Origin: Paramacrobiotus metropolitanus
Lineage: Eukaryota > Tardigrada > Eutardigrada > Parachela > Macrobiotidae
DNA: 64,000 nucleotides
Direction of reading: 5' to 3'
Assembly: GCF_019649055.1 (NCBI RefSeq)
Contig: NW_026570229.1
Coordinates: 2,155,001-2,219,000 of the forward strand
Of this stretch, positions 28,824 to 63,328 are shown in pieces. Position 1 is the stretch's first letter. Each line of letters starts with the position of its first letter. Position numbers and translations under genes: made by a program. The notes under the pieces were generated by a model. The model saw only the letters and a list, made by a program, of their open reading frames with translations, was not told the DNA's origin and ran no database searches.

Positions 28824-29493
28824 TGCCGGATACTTCCCATATATAAACATGCATCATTATCTAAACATGCAAATTGAAGTTCCTTTGATAGACGTTTTAG
28901 TTTGACAGCCATTTTAGATTTAATTATTCTTTACAATTTTTTGTTTTGTTATTTGCGTGCCGTGTGACAATAGTTTTTTGACATATAATTAGTGTGATGT
29001 GCGAAGATGTTAGTTTAACTGGCACCGGCTTTTTGTGGAGACATTGGACTAGTCAGTTGTTGATTGGGCGGGTTGTCGTACCGGCTTTCATGTTTTTAAT
29101 TTTTATGCACGGCGGCTATGGTTTGCATATTCTATTGCACGGTTATTTTTTTTCTGTGGTAGAGTTCCTGTGTCTTCTGTTCAGTATCTAATCCGATGCA
29201 ATGCGCGCTTTTGTACTTCCTACTTTTATTACCATGATATTATGTAGTTATGTATGTATTTCGGGACTAGCTGCAGTCACTGTGCCAAGTACCTCAACAA
29301 AACGATTTATTCAATGTTTATGACTCGAATTCTCTGTAATGCGCAAAAGTCACGGCTTTATATAAAAAAGTAATTCATAGTAATTCGTAGCTATTTTACT
29401 TAAATACATTTGCGTGAATAATTAACAAAATATGAATAAAATAAGTATAGTTAGCTAACAGACCGAAAAGCCGGTCTAGTTAAAAAGCAAAAA
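28824..29493. other. 3' flank of CaaX gene; 5S spacer
   Basis: AT-rich 3' flank. A 65-codon frame at 28994-29191 is hydrophobic but unrecognised. From about 29390 the sequence is the downstream spacer of the minus-strand 5S copies (TTTTACTTAAATACATTTGC), repeated at 29675. Confidence 0.35.
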
Positions 29494-29611
29494 GTCTACA
29501 ACACCCGGTGTTCCCAAGCGGTCACCCATCCAAGTACTAACCGGGCCCGACGTAGGTTATCTTCCGAGATCGAACGGGATCGGGAGTTTTCTACGTGGTA
29601 TGGTCGTAGAC
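29494..29611 (-). rRNA. 5S ribosomal RNA
   Basis: A 118-nt 5S gene on the minus strand with the animal-type start GTCTACGACCATACCACGTA and end GGTGTTGTAGAC, followed by a T-run (on the plus strand aaaaag). The internal C-box region GGATGGGTGACC is intact, as Pol III/TFIIIA promoters need. It matches the plus-strand copies at 32710 and 52691 almost completely. Confidence 0.93.
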
Positions 29612-29777
29612 GAATGCTTAGCTATTTCTAACGCCGGTTGTGATGCCGAATCAACCCGTCGCAGTTACTAGTAGCTATTTTACTTAAATACATTTGCGTG
29701 AATAATTAACAAAATATGAATTAAATAAGTATAGTTAGCTAACAGACCGAAAAGCCGGTCTAGTTAAAAAGCAAAAA

Positions 29778-29906
29778 GTCTACACCACCCGGTGTTCCCA
29801 AGCGGTCACCCATCCAAGTACTAACCGGGCCCGACGTACGTAGGTTATCTTGCGAAATCGAACGGGATCGGGAGTTTTCTACGTGGTTAGTGGTATGGTC
29901 GTAGAC
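29778..29906 (-). pseudogene. 5S rRNA pseudogene with insertions
   Basis: A second minus-strand copy, 129 nt long. It has a 6-nt insertion near its 5' end (CACTAACCACGT in place of CACGT), a 4-nt duplication (ACGTACGT) in the middle and several substitutions (CGAAATCG, TGGTGTAGAC). These disrupt helices of 5S rRNA, so it is probably non-functional. Its spacer matches that of the copy at 29494. Confidence 0.75.
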
Positions 29907-32709: not shown

Positions 32710-32827
32710 GTCTACGACCATACCACGTAGAAAACTCCCGATCCCGTTCGATCTCGGAAGATAACCTACGTCGGGCCCGGTTAGTACTTGGATGGGTGAC
32801 CGCTTGGGAACACCGGGTGTTGTAGAC
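32710..32827 (+). rRNA. 5S ribosomal RNA, array copy 1
   Basis: 118 nt from GTCTACGACCATACCACGTA to GGTGTTGTAGAC, followed by TTTTT. It is identical in the conserved blocks (CCCGATCCCGTTCGATCTCG, TAGTACTTGGATGGGTGACC). First of four copies starting at intervals of exactly 284 bp. Confidence 0.95.
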
Positions 32828-32832
32828 TTTTT
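32828..32832 (+). terminator. Pol III terminator of 5S gene
   Basis: TTTTT immediately after the 5S end. The same T-run follows most of the other 5S copies in the window. Confidence 0.7.
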
Positions 32833-32993
32833 GCCTTTTACATAGACGGCTTTTTGGTTTAATAGCAAACTATATTTATTTTATTTATATTTTGTTAATT
32901 ATTCACACAAATGTGTTTAATTAAAATGGCTTTTTATTAATTGTGCCGGGCTGATTCGGCATCAGAACCGGCATTACAAATATCTATGCATTT

Positions 32994-33111
32994 GTCTAGG
33001 ACCATACCACGTAGAAAACTCCCGATCCCGTTCGATCTCGGAAGATAACCTACGTCGGGCCCGGTTAGTACTTGGATGGGTGACCGCTTGGGAACACCGG
33101 GTGTTGTAGAC
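32994..33111 (+). rRNA. 5S ribosomal RNA, array copy 2
   Basis: 118 nt, starting GTCTAGGACC instead of GTCTACGACC (one changed base in the first helix). Otherwise it matches copy 1. It ends in TTTTT and is 284 bp after copy 1. Confidence 0.92.
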
Positions 33112-33277
33112 TTTTTGCCTTTTAAATAGACGGCTTTTTGGTTTAATAGCAAACTATATTTATTTTATTTATATTTTGTTAATTATTCACCCAAACGTAT
33201 TTAATTAAAATGGCTTTTTATTAATTGTGCCGGGTTGATTCGGCATCAGAAGCGGCGTTACAAATATCTATGCATTT

Positions 33278-33395
33278 GTCTAGGACCATACCACGTAGAA
33301 AACTCCCGATCCCGTTCGATCTCGGAAGATAACCTACGTCGGGCCCGGTTAGTACTTGGATGGGTGACCGCTTGGGAACACCGGGTGTTGTAGAC
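33278..33395 (+). rRNA. 5S ribosomal RNA, array copy 3
   Basis: 118 nt, with the same GTCTAGGACC start as copies 2 and 4, 284 bp after copy 2. The spacer is nearly identical to the neighbouring spacers, showing recent tandem homogenisation. Confidence 0.92.
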
Positions 33396-33561
33396 TTTTT
33401 GCCTTTTAAATAGACGGCTTTTTGGTTTAATAGCAAACTATATTTATTTTATTTATATTTTGTTAATTATTCACCCAAACGTATTTAATTAAAATGGCTT
33501 TTTATTAATTGTGCCGGGTTGATTCGGCATCAGAAGCGGCGTTACAAATATCTATGCATTT

Positions 33562-33679
33562 GTCTAGGACCATACCACGTAGAAAATTCCCGATCCCGTT
33601 CGATCTCGGAAGATAACCTACTTCGGGCCCGATTAGTACTTGGATGGGTGACCGCTTGGGAACACCGGGTGTTGCAGAC
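33562..33679 (+). rRNA. 5S ribosomal RNA, array copy 4, variant
   Basis: 118 nt, 284 bp after copy 3. Several substitutions (AAAATTCCCG, CTACTTCGGGCCCGATTAG, GTTGCAGAC), and the T-run is broken to TTGTT. It is the last unit; the repeat spacer ends just beyond. It may be a decaying edge copy. Confidence 0.82.
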
Positions 33680-34081
33680 TTGTTGCCTTTTTAACTACTC
33701 AGTAGAGTTCTTTGCTCTCAGGTAGATGCGGAATTTTACTCATAATTGTTTTGCGGAAGTTGTAGGTTCGAAACTCAGAAATCTTGCCAACTGTGAAGTG
33801 GAAAATTAGTCATTTAACCCAAAGTGATCGTGTCGTTCATTAACGCTGCAACCGCAAATATACTGAACCAGGATGTTTGACGTTGGCGCATGATGCTGCT
33901 CATCATTCAATATTAAATCGATCTGCCGCAAACCGATTATTACAACTAAGTACAGACTATATAATACTTGTGCAGAAACAGACAAAAGCTTTTTTTCACC
34001 GTCGGATCGACCAAACGCAAATTGCACATCGGTGAGCTAGACGCTGACCCAAGCAGCAAAATTTTATTCCCCTGTGCAGAA

Positions 34082-35618
34082 ATGAAGAATCTTACTAGTA
34101 CTAACCCCAGTAACCGGAGATTCTGGCTTGTGTCCGCCGTGACCGTAATACTGTCAATCATTCCGGTTACCGCTTGGCCGCCGTTTCTTACCGGTTTAGA
34201 TTTTCTGCCACTGGGATCTGTAGTGTACTACTCGGCTTCCGACTCCAAACACTGCAACAATCTGGTGTTCGGAACTTGCAGCACCAAATGGGATTATTGC
34301 TCATGTAACCAGCCTGCCGTCAACTTCACCGTTGTACCGTCCGATGTCACGCACTTGCACTTCGGAGATTTTTATATCGACCGGACTGTACGCCCAATAA
34401 AATGCGCACCGAGCTGTGTACGGGAGACATTCGCTTTGCCGTATTACCAGAACCTAACCGCGCTTGAACTGCACGATTTCTGGATTCCCCACGACCGGCC
34501 GTTCCCGGTTGGCCGCTTCCTCAGTAATTTTAAACCGACATTGAAACAACTCACTCTCCATACTGTCCATCTACCGGCCATTACAAAAGAGACCTTTGCC
34601 GGTTTTTTTGCCTTGGACTATCTAAGACTTACGAATAATCGTATATTGACGATTACAGTGGACGCTTTTACGTCCCTGCGCGCTCCCAGTAGAATATCAG
34701 GGATCTTAAACCCATCACGGCTCAATACCATCAAATTTGAGGGCAATGAGTTTACAACGCTGGATTGGACGATATTTGAACCGTTGGCTGGCAGCCTTAA
34801 AGTAAGCATACAAAACCGGTGCACTAAACGGTTTGCCTCGATTAGCGTAGTATAAACCGTAATCAACTACGGTTTTTACCAATAACTTCTAGGCTACTTA
34901 CTGTAGAATCCGTCCTTTCCGGCAAATAAATTTAAAAATCACGATAACATCCGATCAGCGTTATACAAACCGTAAAGGTGATTCACGGTTTTTGCAATAA
35001 TTCCCTGGTTTCTGATAGCCTGTTCTTCCAGCCATCATATTGGAACCTTACACAGATAAACTTTGTTAAATACTTTTGCAGTCAATTTCACTAACCCGGA
35101 ACAACATTCACCGCATCTACTTCAGCCATTTCTTCACCATGCCAGCCGTTGAACACGTGTATTTATGGGGAAACCACCTGACCGGCATCGACAACCAGCT
35201 CTTGTACAGCCTTGCTCTGCAGGATCTTCGCCCGTTTTTGGATATTCAGTGGAATCCGCTGTGTCCAGCGGATATCCTGTGCCGCTGTCCGTCCATGGAC
35301 AATCTATGGGAGTGGTACCTCAAGATACCCCGTTATTACACTGCACTACGGCCGGGGCTGGCCGACTGTCGTGATTCAACTGACTATTTCACGTGTGGGA
35401 ACTACAGTAGTGGTGTACCGCAGCCAGACGTGAGCGGATTAGTGAATACGATGGCGCCAATGACCGGGAAAACCTATGAAGGTTGTGGAGTTCCGGGTTT
35501 TGCTAAGAAGGCACGCGATGAGCAACGGGCCGCTAAAAATCCCATCAATCGCTTCTTTCCGCCTTCGCTTCGGGAATATTTTTTAAAAATTACCGCGGCT
35601 TTGATGAAACCATCGTAA
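34082..35618 (+). CDS. Secreted leucine-rich-repeat protein A
   Basis: Two exons, 34082-34801 and 35082-35618, joined in phase 0 (CTTAAA|gtaagc ... cttttgcag|TCA), 418 residues. The ATG at 34082 is preferred to the one at 33968 because a hydrophobic signal peptide follows directly (RRFWLVSAVTVILSIIPVTA). A Cys-rich N-terminal cap follows (HCNNLVFGTC, WDYCSCN). Then come about five leucine-rich repeats such as LDYLRLTNNRILTITVDAF and VEHVYLWGNHLTGID, and a C-terminal Cys cap (CPADILCRCPSMDNLWEWY, CRDSTDYFTC). No transmembrane segment or GPI signal is evident, so it is probably secreted. Extracellular LRR proteins bind other proteins; the partner is unknown. The paralogue at 41316 has the same structure. 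About 350 bp upstream of the start is also conserved between the two genes. Confidence 0.85.
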
Positions 35619-40789: not shown

Positions 40790-41315
40790 AGTACGTACTC
40801 ATGGTACTCTGTACTTATGCAAGTATAAAATATCTGCATTTCTGAACTTTACAAGTATGAGCAGTAGAACGTTGTGAGAAGTTGCAAAACTTCTTAATTA
40901 GCTGATGCTGTGTTACCGACAAATCTTTTGTTATTGCTATAGGACCAGTCAATGCTCTCAGCCGGATGCGCACTCTAGCTCATAATTTTTTTGCGGAAGT
41001 GGTTGGTTTAAAACTCTGAAGTCATGCCAGTTACTGTCAACCGATACATTAGTCATTGCCCAAGGTCTTCTTGTCCTTAGTTACCGGTGCAACGAAAACA
41101 TGCTGTACGCGGATGTTTAACGTGACTGAATGGTGCGGCACAACATTCATCACCGGACTGATCCGCCGTAAAACACTCCACAGCATCTGTACGTACAGTA
41201 AAAACGAAAACGGTTTTCACCGCTGGATCGGTCAACTGCAAACTGTGCACATCGCTGAGGCATAAACAACGGATCACCCCATGCCAGCAGCTAACCTTTC
41301 TTCCGCTCTCCAAAA
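40790..41315. promoter_or_regulatory. Upstream region of LRR gene B, conserved with gene A
   Basis: About 40975-41200 aligns with 33740-33965 upstream of LRR gene A (CTCATAATT...TTTGCGGAAGT, AACTC...GAA, GGATGTTT, GATC..CCGC). The duplication that produced the two genes therefore took the promoter region with it. No specific site can be named. Confidence 0.45.
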
Positions 41316-43632
41316 ATGAAGGACCAGACGACTACTAGTCGAAGCCTGTGGTTTGTGGCAGTAATAATGTTGATCATTCCGGTGGTTGCTTCGATGCCCT
41401 TTATGAACGGGATGCCACCAGGTTTTGTTCTGTACAAATCAGCTTCCACCTGGGGCCACTGCAATAATCTGGTGATGAGTGCTTGCAGCGCCCAATGGGA
41501 TTATTGTTCGTGTAACCGGCCGGTTTTCAACGTCACCACAATACCGTCCAACGTCACTGAACTGTGGCTGGGCGACATCGACCATCGAGGCCGGTGGGAC
41601 CGCGCCAAATGCCCGCCGAGTTGTCTGCTGGACACCTCCGCACCATTACCGTATCGCCGGAATCTGACCGCGATCGCGTTGTACGATTTTTGGGTGGTCC
41701 CCGCTGATGGCCCGTTTCCGGTGGGCCGCTTCCTCAAGAACTTCAAAACCACCGTGACGAAACTGACTCTCCATACGATCCACCTGCCGTCTATAACACG
41801 GGATACGTTTGCGGGATTCGCTGCGCTGGAGACACTGCGGTTGGCTAACAACCGGATAGTAACGATTACTGTGGACGCTTTTGCGTCGCTTCGTGCTCCG
41901 GACAAAATACCAGGCATTTTATCCACCCCACGACTCCACTTCATCATGTTGGAGGATAATAACCTGACAGCGGTGGACTGGACGATATTCGAACCGCTGG
42001 CTGCTAGCCTTAAAGTAAGCGTCCATACGAGTACTACGACGTTTTTCGCATTCCAGACATGATTGTAGTTCTGTACTTTATTTCAATAGCGTGATAACAA
42101 TATCCAGATCTAATTACGGTTAAACAAAACAATATTCTCAACGGTACCGATTACTGAAGCAGCATTATCACGTTGAATTCCTGAAGAGATTTTCTGTTTC
42201 AAAACTCGAGACTACGAATCTCGCCAGTTTGTAGCGAAATCCTCTCCCCAATCTCGTTAACAAATTGTTTGGCAGATGTACGAAAACCGGTAGATGTAGG
42301 TACTTCCAGAAATTCATTCATTCATACATGCACTCACGTTAAAGTCTCCTTTAATGGAGTTTGGCTACTGTAGTTGCTATAATACTCGTAATAATCAAAT
42401 AATTATTTAATGTTAATTGCCTAGCCTGGTGGTAGTACGTCTGGCTTTAAGATTGTATGTCCTGGGTTCGATTCCTAGGTGGGTAACTTTTATCTCATAA
42501 AATCAAACCAAAAAAAGTATAAAATTTTCAAAATTAAACAAAAAAATTTTCCAACAGCCTAAAAACCCAAAGGTTTTCACCTTAGGGTTAAAGTCTCCTT
42601 TAATGGAGTTTGGCTACTGTAGTTGCTATAATAATAATAATAATAATAATAATATGGAATCGCGTACCGGACAACAGAGACACTACTTATATTCTCCGCG
42701 TTGTTCTACATGACAAATGTTTTTTTCAAAAATCGATTACGTGGCAACTATCGTTTTTATACAGCACAAGCTTATACACGAGATTAATAAAAAACTTCTC
42801 CAAGTTTTTTGATGTGGAACAACTCGGAAAATACCGCGTCTCTGTTGTCCGGTACGCGATTCCATATTGTGAAAATGTCCGGAAGGCGAGAAACGTCGAA
42901 GTACAAATACCAAACGGTGAGCGGTTGCTAATTTGCTTGGCTCCCGCAAAGGCCATTTACGAACTAACGACTGCTTTGTTCTTTTTTTACTGCTCAGACT
43001 GACGTGCACGTGCACATATAGAGTACTTGGCTATTAGCCAATTATGCTAAAACCACTGATTAAAAATTTTTTGATGCGTTTTGCAGACAATTGCACTAAG
43101 CGGAAACAACATTCAGAGCATCTATTTTAGCCATTTCTTCACGCTCCCTGGAATCGAGTATGTGAGCTTGCCGGGAAACAGCCTGACCGGCATCACTGAC
43201 CAGCTCTTGCGCAGTGTTGCTCCGTACGATCTCCGTCCGTTTTTGAATATTCAGTTCAATCCGATGTGCCCAGTCGATGTACAGTGCCGCTGCTCATCTA
43301 TGGCTAATCTGTGGGACTGGTATGGAAAGTCGCCCCGTCTGTACAGGCGGTTACTCCCGCCTGGATCCACGGATTGCCTCAACTACCCGCAAGCAGACTA
43401 CTTCACTTGCGGAAACTACAGTGTTCTTGAATATGAACCTGCCTCATCCAGATTTCAGAATGTGCTAGAGGCGACCAGCGGCAAATCTTATCAACGATGC
43501 GAGGCTATGGATTTCGCTAATATCGCACGCGGAGCCAAATCTAAAGCCCGGAATCCTTTCGGTCAGCTGTTTCCGCCAACGCTTGGAGATTATTTCTTGA
43601 AAATGGCCGCGGCTTTAGAAAAAACGTCATGA
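41316..43632 (+). CDS. Secreted leucine-rich-repeat protein B
   Basis: Two exons, 41316-42014 and 43087-43632, joined in phase 0 at the same place as in gene A (CTTAAA|gtaagc ... gttttgcag|ACA), 414 residues. It has a signal peptide (SLWFVAVIMLIIPVVASMP), an N-terminal Cys cap (HCNNLVMSAC, WDYCSCNRP), repeats such as LETLRLANNRIVTITVDAF and IEYVSLPGNSLTGITDQLL, and a C-terminal cap (CPVDVQCRCSSMANLWDWY). The protein is similar to gene A over its whole length, with differences spread evenly, so both copies appear to be under selection. The intron is 1072 nt against 280 nt in gene A because it holds SINE-like and MITE insertions. Function beyond extracellular binding cannot be inferred. Confidence 0.85.
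42338..42650 (+). mobile_element. tRNA-derived SINE-like element with duplicated tail
   Basis: A tRNA-like head at 42421-42490 has a near A box (TAGCCTGGTGG) and an exact B box (GGTTCGATTCC). An A-rich body follows, then a tail with GTTAAAGTCTCCTTTAATGG, AGTTTGGCTACTGTAGTTGC and (AAT)n ending near 42653. The same ~50-bp tail lies upstream at 42338-42387, so two elements seem to be inserted end to end, the left one truncated. It is located in the intron of LRR gene B. Confidence 0.6.
42651..42868. mobile_element. MITE, 218 bp, in the SINE tail
   Basis: The ends AATATGGAATCGCGTACCGG, continuing to ACAACAGAGAC, are perfect inverted repeats of about 31 bp. Weaker inverted similarity (GTTGTTCTACAT / ATGTGGAACAAC) reaches about 60 bp. 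It is inserted in the (AAT)n run of the SINE-like element. Short frames on both strands here are artefacts. Confidence 0.75.
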
Positions 43633-51873: not shown

Positions 51874-54800
51874 ATGAGAGTGTGTCTGGGATCAGCTGGA
51901 GCATTCATTGTTTTCCCGTTGATTCTCTACATACTGCTGCATGATTGCCACGCCGTGGTGTTACGCAATCCGGCCTTCAACATCTGGGGCGATATATTCG
52001 GGAATAAGGCAGAGGAACCTCTGCGCAGTCCGGTTATTTTAGGTAAAAAAATTATGGCTAATATGGAGTTCATACCTGAAGCCCAGTTCATATTTTTTTG
52101 CTGCTGTTGTAATTTATGTTTATTAAATTGTCAGTGCCGGGAGTCGGTGGAAGTCGGCTGCAGGCCAAACTCAACAAACCCAACACGGTCAGCTTGTTTT
52201 GCGCCAAACAGACCAAGGATTACATTGATTTATGGCTGAATGTGGACTTGCTGCTGCCTTATGCACTGGAATGCTGGGTGGACAACATGAAGTCAGTACT
52301 TTAATTAAACTATTTCTATACTATTAATAAATAAATCCAAAAATAAATAAATATTAATAAACCAAATATGCTAAAATAATAAAATTAATATACTAATAAT
52401 AAATTGTAGTCTTTTAACAATAATTACTGCTTTGTAAGCGGCAATAACGATTTGTGATTATAATTATTAATTCCCTATATTTGCTTGTACTTACTGACTA
52501 AACTTAAATAAGGCAGCGCAGTTGCACCATCTTAATACAATGTGGCATGAACACCGCATACACCGAGATTAATACACTAAACAATAATAAATAGTTCTAA
52601 TAATACCGACTTTAATAAAGACATATACTCGTACCTTGCTTAGGGCCTTATTAGGCTATCAAAGCCGGCGCTGTAAATATCTTGGAATTTGTCTACGACC
52701 ATACCACGTAGAAAACTCCCGATCCCGTTCGATCTCGGAAGATAACCTACGTCGGGCCCGGTTAGTACTTGGATGGGTGACCGCTTGGGAACACCGGGTG
52801 TTGTAGACTTTTTGCCTTTTGAACTAAACGGCTTTTTAGCCTGCTAGCTAACTAGGCTTATTTTATCAAATTTTGTTTATTATTAGTTATTTAACTAAAA
52901 TGGCTTTTTATTAATTCTGTCGGGTTGATTTGGCATCACAAGCGGCGCTATAAATACCTAAGCATTCGTCTACGACCATACCACGTAGAAAACTCCCGAT
53001 CCCGTTCGATCTCGGAAGATAACCTACGTCGGGCCCGGTTAGTACTTGGATGGGTGACCGCTTGGGAACACCGGGTGTTGTAGACTTTTTGCCTTTTAAC
53101 TAGACGGCTTTCTGGCCTGTTAGCTAACAATACTTGTTTCATTTATATTTTGTTAATTATTCACGAAAATGTATTAATTAAACGTCTTTTTAATGATTGT
53201 GCCGAGTTGACCTGGCCTCACAAGCGGCGTCATAATTCCTAAGCATTCGCCTACGACCATACCACGTAGAAAACTCCCGTATTATCCCGTTCGATCTCGG
53301 AAGATAACCTACGTCGGGCCCGGTTAGTATTTGGATGGGTGACCGCTTGGGAACACCGGGTGTTGTAGACTTTTTGCCTTTTTAACTAGACGGCCTTTTA
53401 GCCTGTTAGGCTGGTAGCCAACAATTTTAATTTATTTTCATTTTCTTAATTATTCACGCAAATTTATTAATAATTGAATGGCTTTTTAATAATGGTGCCG
53501 GGTTTACTTTAGCATAAAACCGGCGTTATGTATACCCTACTCTGGGATCTTACTACGACCATACCATTTAACAAATGAGTGTAATAGTAACGGGTACCGT
53601 GGTATATGTAATAATGCACCACCATATTTCTGCATAGTGCAATGCACATAGCATATTCGCAGCAGCGTATCTGTAACCCTTATGCGTTTTTATTAGCGCA
53701 TGCCAAATAACACGCATACGGTTTATAAAAAGAACAGATTTAACTGCAATAAAAATATTCTCTTCGGCTTATAATTGTTATGCCTTGGCCGCACTATGCA
53801 CGTATTCTTTAGCGGTAAACGTTTTCTAGGTGGTATGGTCGTAGACAAATGATTAGACGTTTGTAGCGACGGTTGTGATGTCAAGTCAATTACCCGGCAC
53901 AATTATTAAGAAGCGTTGTTAATTAAGGTCATTTGCATAAATAATTAATAAGTTATAAATACGCACTGAAAGTGCAGTTAGCTAACAGGGCAAAAAGCGG
54001 TCTATGTAAAAGGCAAAATGTCGGTCCACCATCCAGGTATGTACTAACTACCAACAGTAATGTGAACTTCATCGGGCTCGGTTACTGCACGGAGGGACGT
54101 GCCGGGCGACTGGCGCTGACCGCTTGGCAGCAAAAGGCATTAAGAAATTACGCGTATGATCAAAATTTTTGGTATAAGCAAAATATCAAACCAAACGAAA
54201 TCAGACTTCCGCTTCCGGACCTTTTGGCATTTATGTTAACTTTAATTATTATGGACCATTTGTACGGCGTGCACGTGTAGTAATGAGCAGTACGAGTACT
54301 TAAAACTTATTTCCGGTCCATACAGGCTGCACTACAACAACGTGAGCCGGCGTTCCGAAAATGCACCGGGAGTGGACGTCCGCGTGTACGGTTTCGGCAG
54401 CAGCTTGGCGGTCGAGTATGTCAGCAAGGACCTATACCCCTATGGTACTCTATTCCTCTTAAGTTCTTATCATCCTCATGCCGCTGTTTTCATCCAGTTG
54501 TACGGGATATTACGGATGCGTATGATCATGATTACTTAACGCAAGGAATATGTATTTTTCTGACTTATACAGATACATCTGGTCTTTTATTACAAAGTAT
54601 TTGTTTTGATTTGCGTGCATTCGTACACGTACTGTAAAATTTTATCCTCTGCAAAAAAATGCAGCGCAAAACGCTCAGTAACGAAGGAACGTTTTGTTAA
54701 ATTATTTGTTTGCAGCGAGGTACTTTAAAGACGTAGCGGACATGCTGGTTAGTCAAGGCTACGAAAGGGATATATCGATACGCGCCGCGCCATATGATTT

Positions 54801-58468: not shown

Positions 58469-58590
58469 GTCTACGACCATACCACGTAGAAAACTCCCGT
58501 ATTATCCCGTTCGACCTCGGAAGATAACCGACGTCGGGCCCGGTTTGTACTTGGATGGGTGACCGGTTGGGAACACCGGGTGTTGTAGAC
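58469..58590 (+). rRNA. 5S ribosomal RNA variant with 4-nt insertion
   Basis: 122 nt. It carries the same CCCGTATTATCCCG insertion as the copy at 53249, plus TTCGACCTCGG, AACCGACGTC, CGGTTTGTAC and GACCGGTTGG changes. TTTTT follows. It may be a pseudogene. Confidence 0.75.
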
Positions 58591-58756
58591 TTTTTGCCCT
58601 TTAACTAAACGGCTTTCTGGTTTAATAGCTAACTACACTTGTTTTATTTATATTTTGTCAATTATTCACGCAAATGTATTTAATTAAAATGGCTTTTTAA
58701 CAATTGTGCCGGCTTGGCTTGCCATCACAACCGGCGCTATAAATATTTAAGCATTC

Positions 58757-58874
58757 GTCTACGACCATACCACGTCGAAAACTCCCGATTCCGTTCGATC
58801 TCGGAAGATAACTTACGTCGGGCCCGGCTAGTACTTGGATGGGTGACCGCTTGGGAACACCGGGTGTTGTAGAC
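58757..58874 (+). rRNA. 5S ribosomal RNA, slightly diverged
   Basis: 118 nt, 288 bp after the preceding copy. Changes: CACGTCGAAAAC, CCGATTCCG, ACTTACGTC, CCGGCTAGT. The terminator is weak (TTGTTT). The internal promoter box GGATGGGTGACC is intact. Confidence 0.85.
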
Positions 58875-60501
58875 TTGTTTGATTTTTAATTAGACTGCTT
58901 TTGGCCTGTTAGCAAGCTGTGCTTACTTTATATATATTTAATTAGCGTTAAAGGACTTCGCTTTTTATGGTGTTTGTTTGTGGTTGCCATGAATTTAACC
59001 ACAGCCTTGCCTGCTGATCATTACTTTAATTCTGCTGTTTTACGCTCCCGCATAGCTTACCAAAAGGACAAAAAGATACAGTAACCGCAATTCGAATGCC
59101 AAAAGTCTGCTCAACCATGCAGTGTGCTCAAACGGTCATTAATGTCATTTGAAAGTTCTGGTAGGTACATGCTCAAGGAGTCAAGGGTGTGACTTTGTTA
59201 ACCTGGCGGTGTGTAAAGGGAATTTAAGTCACAAAATGTTCTAAACTGATGGCAAGCGGCCAGCTGGTGTGACCGCGAATTTGGACGTTTCTCGCGCTAC
59301 TTGTTGCGGCATCATGCAGGCCCTCTCGAGCAAGCCACATGCGAGCGGTGTATCCATCTGGGCGCGAGCGCAGCAACAGCAACACGCAGCAGTACGAAAC
59401 ACAAACCACCAGACACCGCAGCCGCACTGACGACCTTATCTGCTGCGTCCGTTGGGCTTCACAATCCGTGAACCGTGGGGACTAGAGATTCAGTCTGATT
59501 CGCCTGCCTGATAACTGACGAAAAAGATCAAAGTTGAAACAGGAGACCGGCGAAATGCAAGCCACGAAATATCTGCGCCACCGATTATTTGGCTACTGCG
59601 ATGAAAGCGGGCAGCATGACTGAGAAGATTTATGGGAACTAACCAGAATGTTTCTGGGTCTGACTTTACTTGTGGTACTTTTTTTCTTACGTACAGGACG
59701 ATTTGAACGCCTAATACTGTATGCTATCCGGTGCTAGCATTGGTAATGGTGACCTTACGTTCTTCTCTTATTTACTGATGGCCGACAGCTTCCTTGAAGC
59801 GCTGTAAAAGCAAATCGAGTTGCGATCTCCTAGTCGCATCGTTGAAACTTGTACTGTAATCGAGACCGAATAACCTAACCGGCGGTGAATTTGTAAGCGA
59901 TCCGATGGTTCTCTCATCTGACCGCTAAGTTTGGGAATACTGTAGTACATACTATAACTGGAGAATGTGGCGATATTGTACCGTATTCCGCTAAAATTTC
60001 TATGAATTTCCTGAAAGCCTTGCATTAAACTAAAAACCTAAACAAGAAGGATAATCAATTAGGTATAGAAAACGACTTTGTTATATGGCATACCTATGTA
60101 TATAACAACGATATTATACGGATTGTTTCAGCTCAATTAAAGTACTGTACTGTATAGCGTATACGCGTGCATAACTGCAAGAAAGTTTTATGCAAAGATT
60201 GTTCATGTATAGTGTAGTTAGTACGTACAGGTACACGTGCCGGCTGATCAATCAACATTTTCCTGACAAAACAAACACACACCATTGTTGATCGAATCGG
60301 CCTAATCAGCGTTTATCTATCGGCACAATGACGATGTCAGCAGCGACTGGCAAAGCGACCGTGAAACCGTTCTGCTTCTACATGTATAACCACTTTATCG
60401 GCAGTTTACTTTTCGCATCGCAATAAGCACTGCAGTAACAAAACTAACACACTGTTAGTTAAAGCGAACACTTTTGCGTCACACCAGTCTATCGCAGCAA
60501 A
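58875..60501. other. Mostly featureless; possible exon at 59224-59427 (-)
   Basis: A minus-strand 67-codon frame starting with ATG at 59427 has a signal-peptide-like N-terminus (RLRCLVVCVSYCCVLLLL) and lies in a GC-rich island (59220-59460). No partner exon or family match is apparent. The rest is AT-rich with CTGTAC/GTACAG words. The last 100 bp form the 5' flank of the FAD-oxidase gene. Confidence 0.3.
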
Positions 60502-63328
60502 ATGAACAGCTTTTTCTTGATTCTGGGTATAATGTTCTGGCCGTTGGCTATTAACAGCCAACGTCCGTATTCCCGATGCCGCTGCATGCCGGACACGCCG
60601 TGTTGGCCGACAGCGCAGGAGTGGAACGGATTGAACGCTTCCCTAAGCGGGCGTCTGGTGCAACCACAGCCATCAGGTTAACTTCAATTTGAGCAACCGA
60701 AAATCCCCGCCGTTTTGTAACCGTTGCGTATTATCCAGGGTATCCATGCTATCGTGGCGCCGGTTATAACATCACCGCCTGCTCCCAGATGAAGACATCG
60801 CGCTCTAACGCTTACTACCGCCGCGACTTGCCCGGCACGACGCAGTCCGAGAACTGGGAAGAGGCGGGGGAGAATGGACGGTGTGCTCTGGAGACCGCCG
60901 ACGGACGCTTCGCTGTCTGCCATCGCGGGCGGGTGTCGGTCTACGGCGTCCAGGTGGAGTCGGTTAAGGATGTCCAGACCGCGGTTAAATTCGCTGCCTC
61001 ACATAATCTCCGGTTGGTTGTGAAGTCCACTGGGCATGATTATATGGGGAGGAGCTCGGCGGCCGGCTCCTTCCTGATCTGGATGCAAAAGTAGGTTTTC
61101 TCCTTATGGGTGACGATAAACAGTATTTAGCTTTACTTAAAGGATCTGGCCTGGTGCATAGCATGAAGTTCGAGTACATCCATGTGAACTTCTGCTATTA
61201 CGCACTCCCAGACACGTTTTTGTATTGCTTTATGAGGTTTTGTAGCCAAAGGATTGGCTTGTGTACGTAAGTCCTAAAAGTGCATGCAAAATGGTTTGCA
61301 TTCACGAAAACTTCGCTTTCGCTCGCTTCAAAACACTTTTTTGCAGTGTTTTTGGCATTCTGTAACCAAATAACTTGTATACATTGGCGTAAAAACCGTT
61401 TGTGCGGGCAACATTCGGTTGCGGAGTTATGTGAGATTGGATCCAACAAATGTAAACGCGAACAGGTGTACCAAAGGTCTCGTTATAGACCGGCATTTTG
61501 CACGTAGACGCACATGTGCACTGTATGTACAAAGACAAGTATCATGATGTATGTATTGTACAATACAAAGAGCGGCTTCAGTATACCGAACCAAAATTAT
61601 AGCACTGTAGCAACTTTTATAGGTTTTTAAAATTCATTTCAAAATTTAAGAAAGTGGCAGAATTCAGATTTGGTGTTAACACCGTCCCAATTTCAGGATG
61701 AAGGGAATCACGTACAGCAGCGCCTTCGTCCCGAAAAACTGCCCTCGCGAACCAGCGACCCCGGCCGTGACAGTCACCGGGGGAACCGGATGGGGCGAAG
61801 TCTACGACTACGTCGAGCAGAACTTCGGCAACAAACTTGTTATACTAGGAGGCAACGCGGCCACCGTGGGCGCCGCGGGGGGCTTCGCCTTGGGCGGGGG
61901 TCACGGCGCCCAGTCCCCGTGGCTGGGCCTGGCCGTGGACAACGTCCTGGAGCTGCAGGTGGTCACGGCCGACGGCCAGCTGCGGACGCTCAACAAATGC
62001 CAGGAACCGGATCTCTTCTGGGCCCTGCGGGGCGGCGGGGGCGGGACCTTCGGGGTGGTGACGGCGGTGACGCACAAACTGAACCCCGGGGCTGCGGAGT
62101 ACACCAGTTACGCGGTGGTGGCCTTCTCCAGTGATTTCCAGCCGCTGACGGGGGAACAGATGGAGGCGCTGCTGGAGGTGTGGGCGAGTTATACGCCGAT
62201 TCTGGAGGAGGTCCCCTGGGGAGGGTACTTCCAGTTTGTCACCGGCATCGGGTTCTTTATCAGCATCTTGGCGCCGTTGAATGAGGCTGCGGCCAGCCAG
62301 ACCGTTGTACCGTTGACGAATGGGCTGTTGGCGTTGCAGACGAAAGGCATCACGATCGTCGGGGTGAATCAGACCAATCCTGAGCAGTATACGCGACCTT
62401 TCAAAAGTTTCCGGGTACGATCAAAGTATTGCACATATATGTATACCCAGAATTTTTGTATCCAGTATTTTAATAATATAAGTTGTATTAATGTATATTA
62501 AGGATTATTAACCAAAATAAATAATATACTTAATTAATTATCACCTTGTTAATTGTGGTAAATATGTAAATACGTCGTAAATTATGCGTCGTAATGCTAT
62601 GAGTGTATTGTGCACAGTCCCTTCTCGTGCTACTCGTATTATAAATTGGGATAAATTCTTCATTTGATGTATTTACTGAGTGGTGCTCACTGTTGTTCAT
62701 ATTGTGAAATAAAAATGAAAACTGATAACGTAAGTGCTTAAATAACTGGCTGTCAATTTTTCCACAGCAATGGCACTCCTGGACGGGCCGACTCTTCTCC
62801 CCCGAGACCGGCACCGACGCCACGGGCGGGCGCACCATCCTAGGCTCCCGCCTCGTCCCCGTGTCAGCCCTCTCCAACCCCCGCCTCTTCGCCAAGACTA
62901 TCGTGGATGGCATGCGGGCCAACGGCCTCCTCTGGGGCATGCTGGGCCACTTCGTCAACGGGAAGGGCGTCCGCGCGCGGGACCCCCACGGCACCGAGAC
63001 CTCGGTGACCCCCGCCTGGCGGCGCTCCGTCTACCACGTGGTCATGTTCATCGGCTGGTCCTACGAGACCACCGACGCCGAACTGGCCAACCTGACGAAC
63101 GCCCTGAACGCGGGGGTCCAGGTATGGCGGGACGCGTATCCCGGGGCGGGAGCGTACGGGAACGAGGCGTTCACCGCGGAGCCGCGCTGGCAGGAGGCGT
63201 TCTGGGGCGCGGAGAATTACGGCCGGCTGTACAGGATCAAGATGGCCGTGGATCCCGCCGGGCTATTCACCTGTCCGCAGTGTGTCGGCTGTGAGATGTG
63301 GGATGCCGAGGGAGTGTGTCAGAAATGA
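60502..63328 (+). CDS. Secreted FAD-linked oxidase, berberine-bridge-enzyme-like, fungal type
   Basis: Four exons join in phase: 60502-60676, 60739-61090, 61697-62414 and 62768-63328, coding 601 residues. A signal peptide comes first (SFFLILGIMFWPLAINSQ). The start of the mature protein, CRCMPDTPCWPTAQEWNGLN, is the N-terminal signature seen in fungal members. The FAD-binding PCMH domain includes VKSTGHDYMGRS, whose His corresponds to the one that bonds covalently to FAD, then GGNAATVGAAGGFALGGGHG and DLFWALRGGGGGTFGVV. In berberine bridge enzyme a Cys in the second block gives a second FAD link; here Ala stands there, so attachment is probably single. The C-terminus (RLYRIKMAVDPAGLFTCPQC, VGCEMW) matches the BBE domain end with the fungal VGxExW form. 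The enzyme should oxidise an alcohol, sugar or amine and reduce O2 outside the cell; the substrate is unknown. Exons 3-4 are very GC-rich. This is a strong candidate for horizontal acquisition followed by intron gain. Confidence 0.9.

Follow-up and report, generated by a model that had tools for sequence, protein, structure and literature searches.

The closest described systems are fungal members of the VAO family. For two of them, MtVAO615 and MtVAO713, the passages of PMC6017366 that deal with these enzymes describe an FAD cofactor bound bicovalently in the first and monocovalently in the second, a fast reaction with O2 in both, no known substrate for MtVAO615 and only a very poor one for MtVAO713. 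A further enzyme, AspoA, is reported in the passages of PMC8752850 devoted to it to be 35% identical to MtVAO615, with an essential Glu538 and a contribution from Tyr160; having also lost the second cysteine that tethers the flavin, it works as an isomerase with the glutamate as acid.

The locus described here lies on the forward strand at positions 60502 to 63328 of the window, which is the whole 64,000-nt stretch of Paramacrobiotus metropolitanus DNA that was analysed. It is probably a tardigrade nuclear gene that encodes a flavoprotein oxidase, secreted and rich in disulphides, belonging to the MtVAO615/MtVAO713 group of BBE-like VAO enzymes. When spliced, its four exons encode 601 residues with 0 internal stops, and its parts are as follows.

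60502..60676, forward strand: exon 1, with the start codon, a signal-peptide-like N-terminus and the CRC-x5-CWP motif at 60577-60609
60677..60738, forward strand: intron 1, 62 bp, GT-AG, phase 1, following residue 58; identical in position and phase in 14/14 family loci
60739..61090, forward strand: exon 2, first half of the FAD domain; His158 codon at 61035-61037 (KSTGHDY)
61091..61696, forward strand: intron 2, 606 bp, GT-AG, phase 2, following residue 175; in the window gene only
61697..62414, forward strand: exon 3, second half of the FAD domain; Ala230 codon at 61857-61859 (Cys in 13 paralogues and MtVAO615)
62415..62767, forward strand: intron 3, 353 bp, GT-AG, phase 0, following residue 415; in 13/14 loci, absent from C6c
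62768..63328, forward strand: exon 4, the substrate/BBE part; Glu548 codon at 63164-63166; C-terminal C584, C587 and C599; stop codon TGA

The GC content of the exons is 0.55-0.68 against 0.29-0.44 for the introns. Paralogues repeat the phase 1 junction at residue 58 and the phase 0 junction at residue 415, which gives these two independent support, and the middle junction (175, phase 2) is placed by homology and reading frame. An earlier note on this DNA had proposed three GT-AG introns, as well as an N-terminal CRCMPDTPCWP and a C-terminal GLF...VGCEMW signature. The three introns and the open 601-residue frame bear out the former, and both signatures are found in the spliced protein, where CRCMPDTPCWP occupies residues 26-36 and GLFTCPQCVGCEMWD residues 580-594, the chain ending in ...GLFTCPQCVGCEMWDAEGVCQK. 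The N-terminal stretch looks like a signal sequence when judged by eye, and four NxS/T sites are present. Taken as a model built from sequence, the locus is confirmed as a real four-exon animal gene.

Family membership was assessed with Pfam and with a search of solved structures (PDB) using the window protein as query. FAD_binding_4 was matched at 2e-20 (73.4 bits, curated cut-off 26.4) and BBE at 3e-9 (37.2 bits, cut-off 20.6). Among the best 60 of 82 distinct PDB sequences with E up to 0.001, the first two are the fungal MtVAO615 (E 7e-64, residues 23 to 597) and MtVAO713 (E 3.9e-54, residues 23 to 592), and the next structure reaches only E 2.6e-19 over residues 133-304. A full-length resemblance to MtVAO615 at E 7e-64 is far beyond chance as judged by alignment, and the earlier identification of a fungal-type BBE-like oxidase with a signal-like N-terminus holds on both the full-length fungal matches and the Pfam domains. 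In both trees described below, the tardigrade, fungal and full-length bacterial members form a group supported at 100/100 against other bacterial VAO proteins.

The active site was compared across 25 aligned sequences (14 tardigrade, 2 fungal, 9 bacterial). The flavin-linking histidine, His158 within the R/KxxGH motif (KSTGHDY), is invariant, as is the catalytic Glu548, which aligns with Glu519 and Glu543 of the two fungal enzymes. A glutamate in place of tyrosine as catalytic base is the mark of the MtVAO615/713 group, which is part of clade II in PMC6017366. Tyr160 is kept in 24/25 sequences, MtVAO713 being the exception. The cysteine of the second FAD link (6-S, in a CxxV/L/IG motif) occurs in 13/14 tardigrade proteins, in MtVAO615 and in all nine bacterial proteins; the window protein has Ala230 and MtVAO713 Ser231 at this position, so that the residue that defines the bicovalent type is missing from the window protein. 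Twelve cysteine columns are conserved in the tardigrade proteins, ten of which, including C26, C28 and C34, are common to MtVAO713. The residues lining the pockets of MtVAO615 and MtVAO713 are mostly not conserved in the window protein, and its substrate is therefore not readable from these two enzymes.

The window gene has many relatives in its own genome. Searching the 169.8 Mb assembly (533 contigs) with the window protein gave matches on contigs 6, 7, 9, 23, 36, 44, 79, 98 and 273, from which homology-guided models were built for 13 further loci covering most of the protein and for one fragment on contig 273 (C273). Together with the window gene, these 14 family loci sit on 8 contigs of 0.56-3.16 Mb, that of the window gene being 2.26 Mb long, and they are the same 14 among the at least 14 BBE-domain matches in the genome. 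Part of the protein is missing from one model (C23a), and an in-frame stop is found in C23b and, in some models, C98; the other 11/14 loci have models open over the aligned part, with start codons settled for some only. Groups of three and four oxidase paralogues are found (L005, L006; G000:C6:2976315-2992239 and G000:C36:969050-1059212), and the pair on contig 23 looks decayed. FAD_binding_4 matches outside the BBE family occur at G000:C12:15322-15516, 66103-66297 and 106577-106771 and at C3:2247612-2248118; the three copies on C12 score similarly and are possibly sugar-lactone oxidases.

Divergence within this family is considerable. The window protein is 41-46% identical to its paralogues, which share 40-73% among themselves, and with a GC3 of 0.81 its gene exceeds all the other loci (0.50-0.76). 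For the pair C6a/C6b, dN is 0.15 and dS 1.0-1.4 by two methods, and a dN this far below dS is a sign of purifying selection on the two coding sequences. In the other seven pairs tried, dS was at least 1.2 or could not be calculated; for the window gene against C6a and C6c, one method returned dN of 0.48-0.49 and dS of 1.2 and 2.5. The tardigrade proteins fall in a single clade, supported at 95/95 in the tree of 14 rows and at 100/99 in that of 11; the window gene is its first branch, and the rest are grouped at 91/94 and 98/96.

Intron positions add to this picture. Intron 58 (phase 1) is common to all 14 loci and intron 415 (phase 0) to 13 of them, being missing in C6c; C6b and C98 agree once closer queries are used, and in C23b it appears only in models with C6a or C6c as query. 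Intron 214 (phase 0) is present in 13/14 loci, the window gene having its own 175 (phase 2) instead. Since introns 58 and 415 are common to the window gene and its paralogues, they most likely predate the split between them. The family to which the window gene belongs is, by alignment, old and expanded, and within it the window gene is the one that lacks the second FAD-tethering cysteine; the earlier note has neither point.

Contamination was considered and is ruled out by the 2.26 Mb contig, the three introns and the 13 relatives, all on contigs of at least 0.56 Mb; the same evidence disposes of a lone gene. That the locus is not a simple contaminant had been argued before from the sequence, and the 14 loci on 8 contigs agree with it. 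The accompanying statement that its neighbours are clearly metazoan fared less well. Pfam searches of 10 of the 21 window ORFs found leucine-rich repeats in four (two under the curated cut-off) and no match in six, and among three neighbouring ORFs compared with the PDB one matches LRR receptors and two have no match; with repeats in a few ORFs and the rest without a match, the metazoan neighbourhood is weakly supported, and the reading of the DNA as animal draws mainly on genome size, contig figures and introns. Two pairs of LRR ORFs with a similar layout, at 33965-35618 and 41295-43632, are perhaps duplicated LRR genes. The window also carries eleven copies of 5S rRNA, some diverged (76-112 bits), in four small clusters.

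29493-29906, reverse strand: 5S rRNA cluster
32710-33680, forward strand: 5S rRNA cluster
52691-53371, forward strand: 5S rRNA cluster
58469-58875, forward strand: 5S rRNA cluster

Bacterial relatives of the full-length type are rare. A scan of bacterial and archaeal genomes yielded at least 590 relatives, and among the best 80, which were kept, nine matches are near full length (L017-L024, L026). Searching with a bacterial profile and excluding the seed genomes, members were found in 7/397 Pseudomonadota, 1/293 Planctomycetota and 1/295 Actinomycetota genomes drawn (8/398, 2/294 and 2/296 with one seed each). The reading frames of this bacterial subfamily are uninterrupted. The Planctomycetota member at G491:C36:10440-12076 (L114, L115) appears as two overlapping match pieces, as if its frame were broken. 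On an alphaproteobacterial contig, L018 (1414-3171) carries N- and C-terminal cysteine pairs as in the eukaryotic members and is sister to the other full-length bacterial ones.

Two trees were built, and the C273 fragment is in neither. Tree 1 holds all 14 tardigrade rows; tree 2 was built without three tardigrade rows whose models are decayed or unsure (C23a, C23b, C98), without three outgroups (L031, L034, L087), without L111 and L112, whose frames the ORF pattern did not recover, and without the split match L114/L115. Fungi join bacteria in tree 1 (50/25), and tree 2 weakly prefers tardigrades with bacteria (61/22). The AU test, which covers two fungal sequences, rejected no alternative grouping of fungi, bacteria and tardigrades (p-AU 0.39-0.47). 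The tree proposed in the earlier note as a check on origin, run twice with this test, thus did not separate fungal from bacterial affinity.

On the preferred course of events, the family would have entered or arisen in the tardigrade lineage before its copies split, with two introns already present, and would then have been duplicated. As to how it came there, the tardigrade lineage may have acquired the gene horizontally from a fungus, with introns gained and copies made afterwards, a tentative but quite possible reading. It is favoured by the two best solved relatives of the window protein being fungal (among the best 60 of 82), and by a loop, some 15-19 residues long and containing two cysteines (C107, C119), that is present in 14/14 tardigrade and 2/2 fungal sequences and in 0/9 aligned bacterial ones; other transfers into tardigrades have also been reported, for example a gulonolactone oxidase in the passages seen of PMC5531438. 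However, the case involves two fungal sequences, both flagged as long branches, possibly joined in error. Tardigrades plus fungi is the best tree in neither analysis, although the AU test does not reject it (p-AU 0.468 and 0.39), and the weak preference of tree 2 lies with bacteria. Two tardigrade proteins were also compared by identity, and their 27-32% to fungal sequences does not exceed the 26-32% to bacterial ones. The horizontal fungal origin put forward in the earlier note therefore keeps the support of the two-cysteine loop, but the trees do not single it out and full-length bacterial relatives score about as highly as the two fungal ones.

Transfer from a bacterium of alphaproteobacterial type, similar to L018, is unlikely. 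L018 is the top-scoring sequence for 5/7 tardigrade queries, the window protein included (MtVAO615 for the other two), and has both the N-terminal C..CWP and the C-terminal C..C pairs; against this, it lacks the C107-C119 loop, and its place among the other full-length bacterial members has 100/100 support. Equally doubtful is an old eukaryotic gene passed on vertically in tardigrades and patchily kept or lost in other animals. The age of the family in the P. metropolitanus genome (41-46% between the window gene and the rest) and its common introns would suit such a history, as might the 'FAD linked oxidase' of a coral in the part of PMC3324498 seen, a candidate member by its name; but the group is known here from no other animal, in a comparison that covered fungi, bacteria and one tardigrade.

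More telling than the origin are the old expansion of the family and the missing second flavin link in the window copy. Taken together, the biochemistry of the fungal enzymes, the example of AspoA and the residues of the window gene lead one to expect a monocovalent FAD and glutamate-based acid/base catalysis, and the window protein is most likely secreted and monocovalent, acting as an oxidase through His158, Tyr160 and Glu548. Briefly, a single covalent bond, at His158, would hold the FAD, and a substrate, which we infer to be bulky and hydroxylated or hydrophobic, would be oxidised beside the flavin, where Glu548 (together with Tyr160) would serve as acid/base. Hydride would pass from the substrate to FAD, and the reduced FAD would then be reoxidised by O2, giving H2O2.

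From its residues, oxidase activity appears likelier for the window protein than isomerase activity. That the window copy works as AspoA does, as an isomerase or an acid catalyst with no redox step, and not as an oxidase, is improbable: the second tether cysteine is lost in both (Ala230; Gly226 in the AspoA passages seen of PMC8752850) and Tyr160 and Glu548 are kept, but MtVAO713, which also lacks this cysteine (Ser231), is an oxidase. The equivalence of Glu548 with the AspoA glutamate was inferred from the AspoA numbering and the use of MtVAO615 as template, as given in those passages. An enzyme like ecdysteroid-22-oxidase that inactivates the moulting hormone is very improbable. The 22-hydroxyl is made by disembodied. 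Although tardigrades moult and MtVAO713 is 52% identical to the Nomuraea rileyi enzyme (passages of PMC6017366), the window protein shares no more than 27% identity with MtVAO713 and groups with it in neither tree. PMC6170570 (2018), in the passages seen, reports that disembodied was not found in either of two tardigrades and describes hormone data as unavailable for these animals.

For other tardigrades, the part of PMC12167791 consulted lists BV898_03535 of H. exemplaris, annotated 'FAD-linked oxidoreductase', as an N-glycoprotein, and this annotation name suggests a secreted protein of the same kind in a second tardigrade. In the portion of the open-licence literature searched, no title or abstract opening named BBE or FAD-linked oxidases in tardigrades or their transfer to animals, and the H. 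exemplaris glycoprotein was the one related item to emerge. The words 'FAD' and 'oxidoreductase' are absent from the main text of PMC5531438, and the passages of PMC7730656 on expansions of ROS genes in tardigrades do not mention the BBE-like oxidase family.

If confirmed, these results would mean that a moulting, desiccation-tolerant animal has an enlarged family of secreted flavin oxidases, the characterised relatives of which come from fungi. The family would then be a test case for gene entry or persistence in animal genomes, intron gain and diversification, and would let one ask whether such oxidases supply extracellular H2O2 or new small-molecule chemistry. One FAD link naturally absent in one branch offers a ready contrast with the 13 Cys-bearing paralogues. 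As a speculative extension, macrobiotid tardigrades may long ago have taken up a secreted Glu-type BBE oxidase and turned it into a 14-gene extracellular toolkit for metabolite oxidation and H2O2 production, with the window gene as a separate branch that lost the second FAD tether and perhaps performs AspoA-like chemistry.

Among named systems, MtVAO615 of Myceliophthora thermophila (PDB 6f72/6f73), itself secreted and glycosylated, resembles the window protein in its full-length homology, its active-site His, Tyr and Glu and the C107-C119 loop, and has VGSEVWD at its C-terminus. It differs in its bicovalent FAD, attached through Cys222 where the window protein has Ala230, in most pocket residues and in an identity of 30%. 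MtVAO713 (PDB 6f74) shares the CRC...CWP N-terminus, the C-terminal CVG, 10/12 cysteine columns and the absence of the FAD-linking cysteine, its own FAD being monocovalent, but it has Ser231 rather than Ala, Leu161 rather than Tyr, a hydrophobic pocket that is mostly not conserved and 27% identity. The Aspergillus BBE-like isomerase AspoA, as described in passages of PMC8752850, matches in His158, Tyr160, a glutamate at the catalytic position and loss of the second tether cysteine; unlike the window gene, it belongs to a cytochalasin gene cluster. The rare bacterial subfamily (L018 and others) is alike in its full length and the same His, Tyr and Glu, with terminal cysteine pairs in L018, and unlike in the missing C107-C119 loop (0/9 aligned) and its uninterrupted frames.
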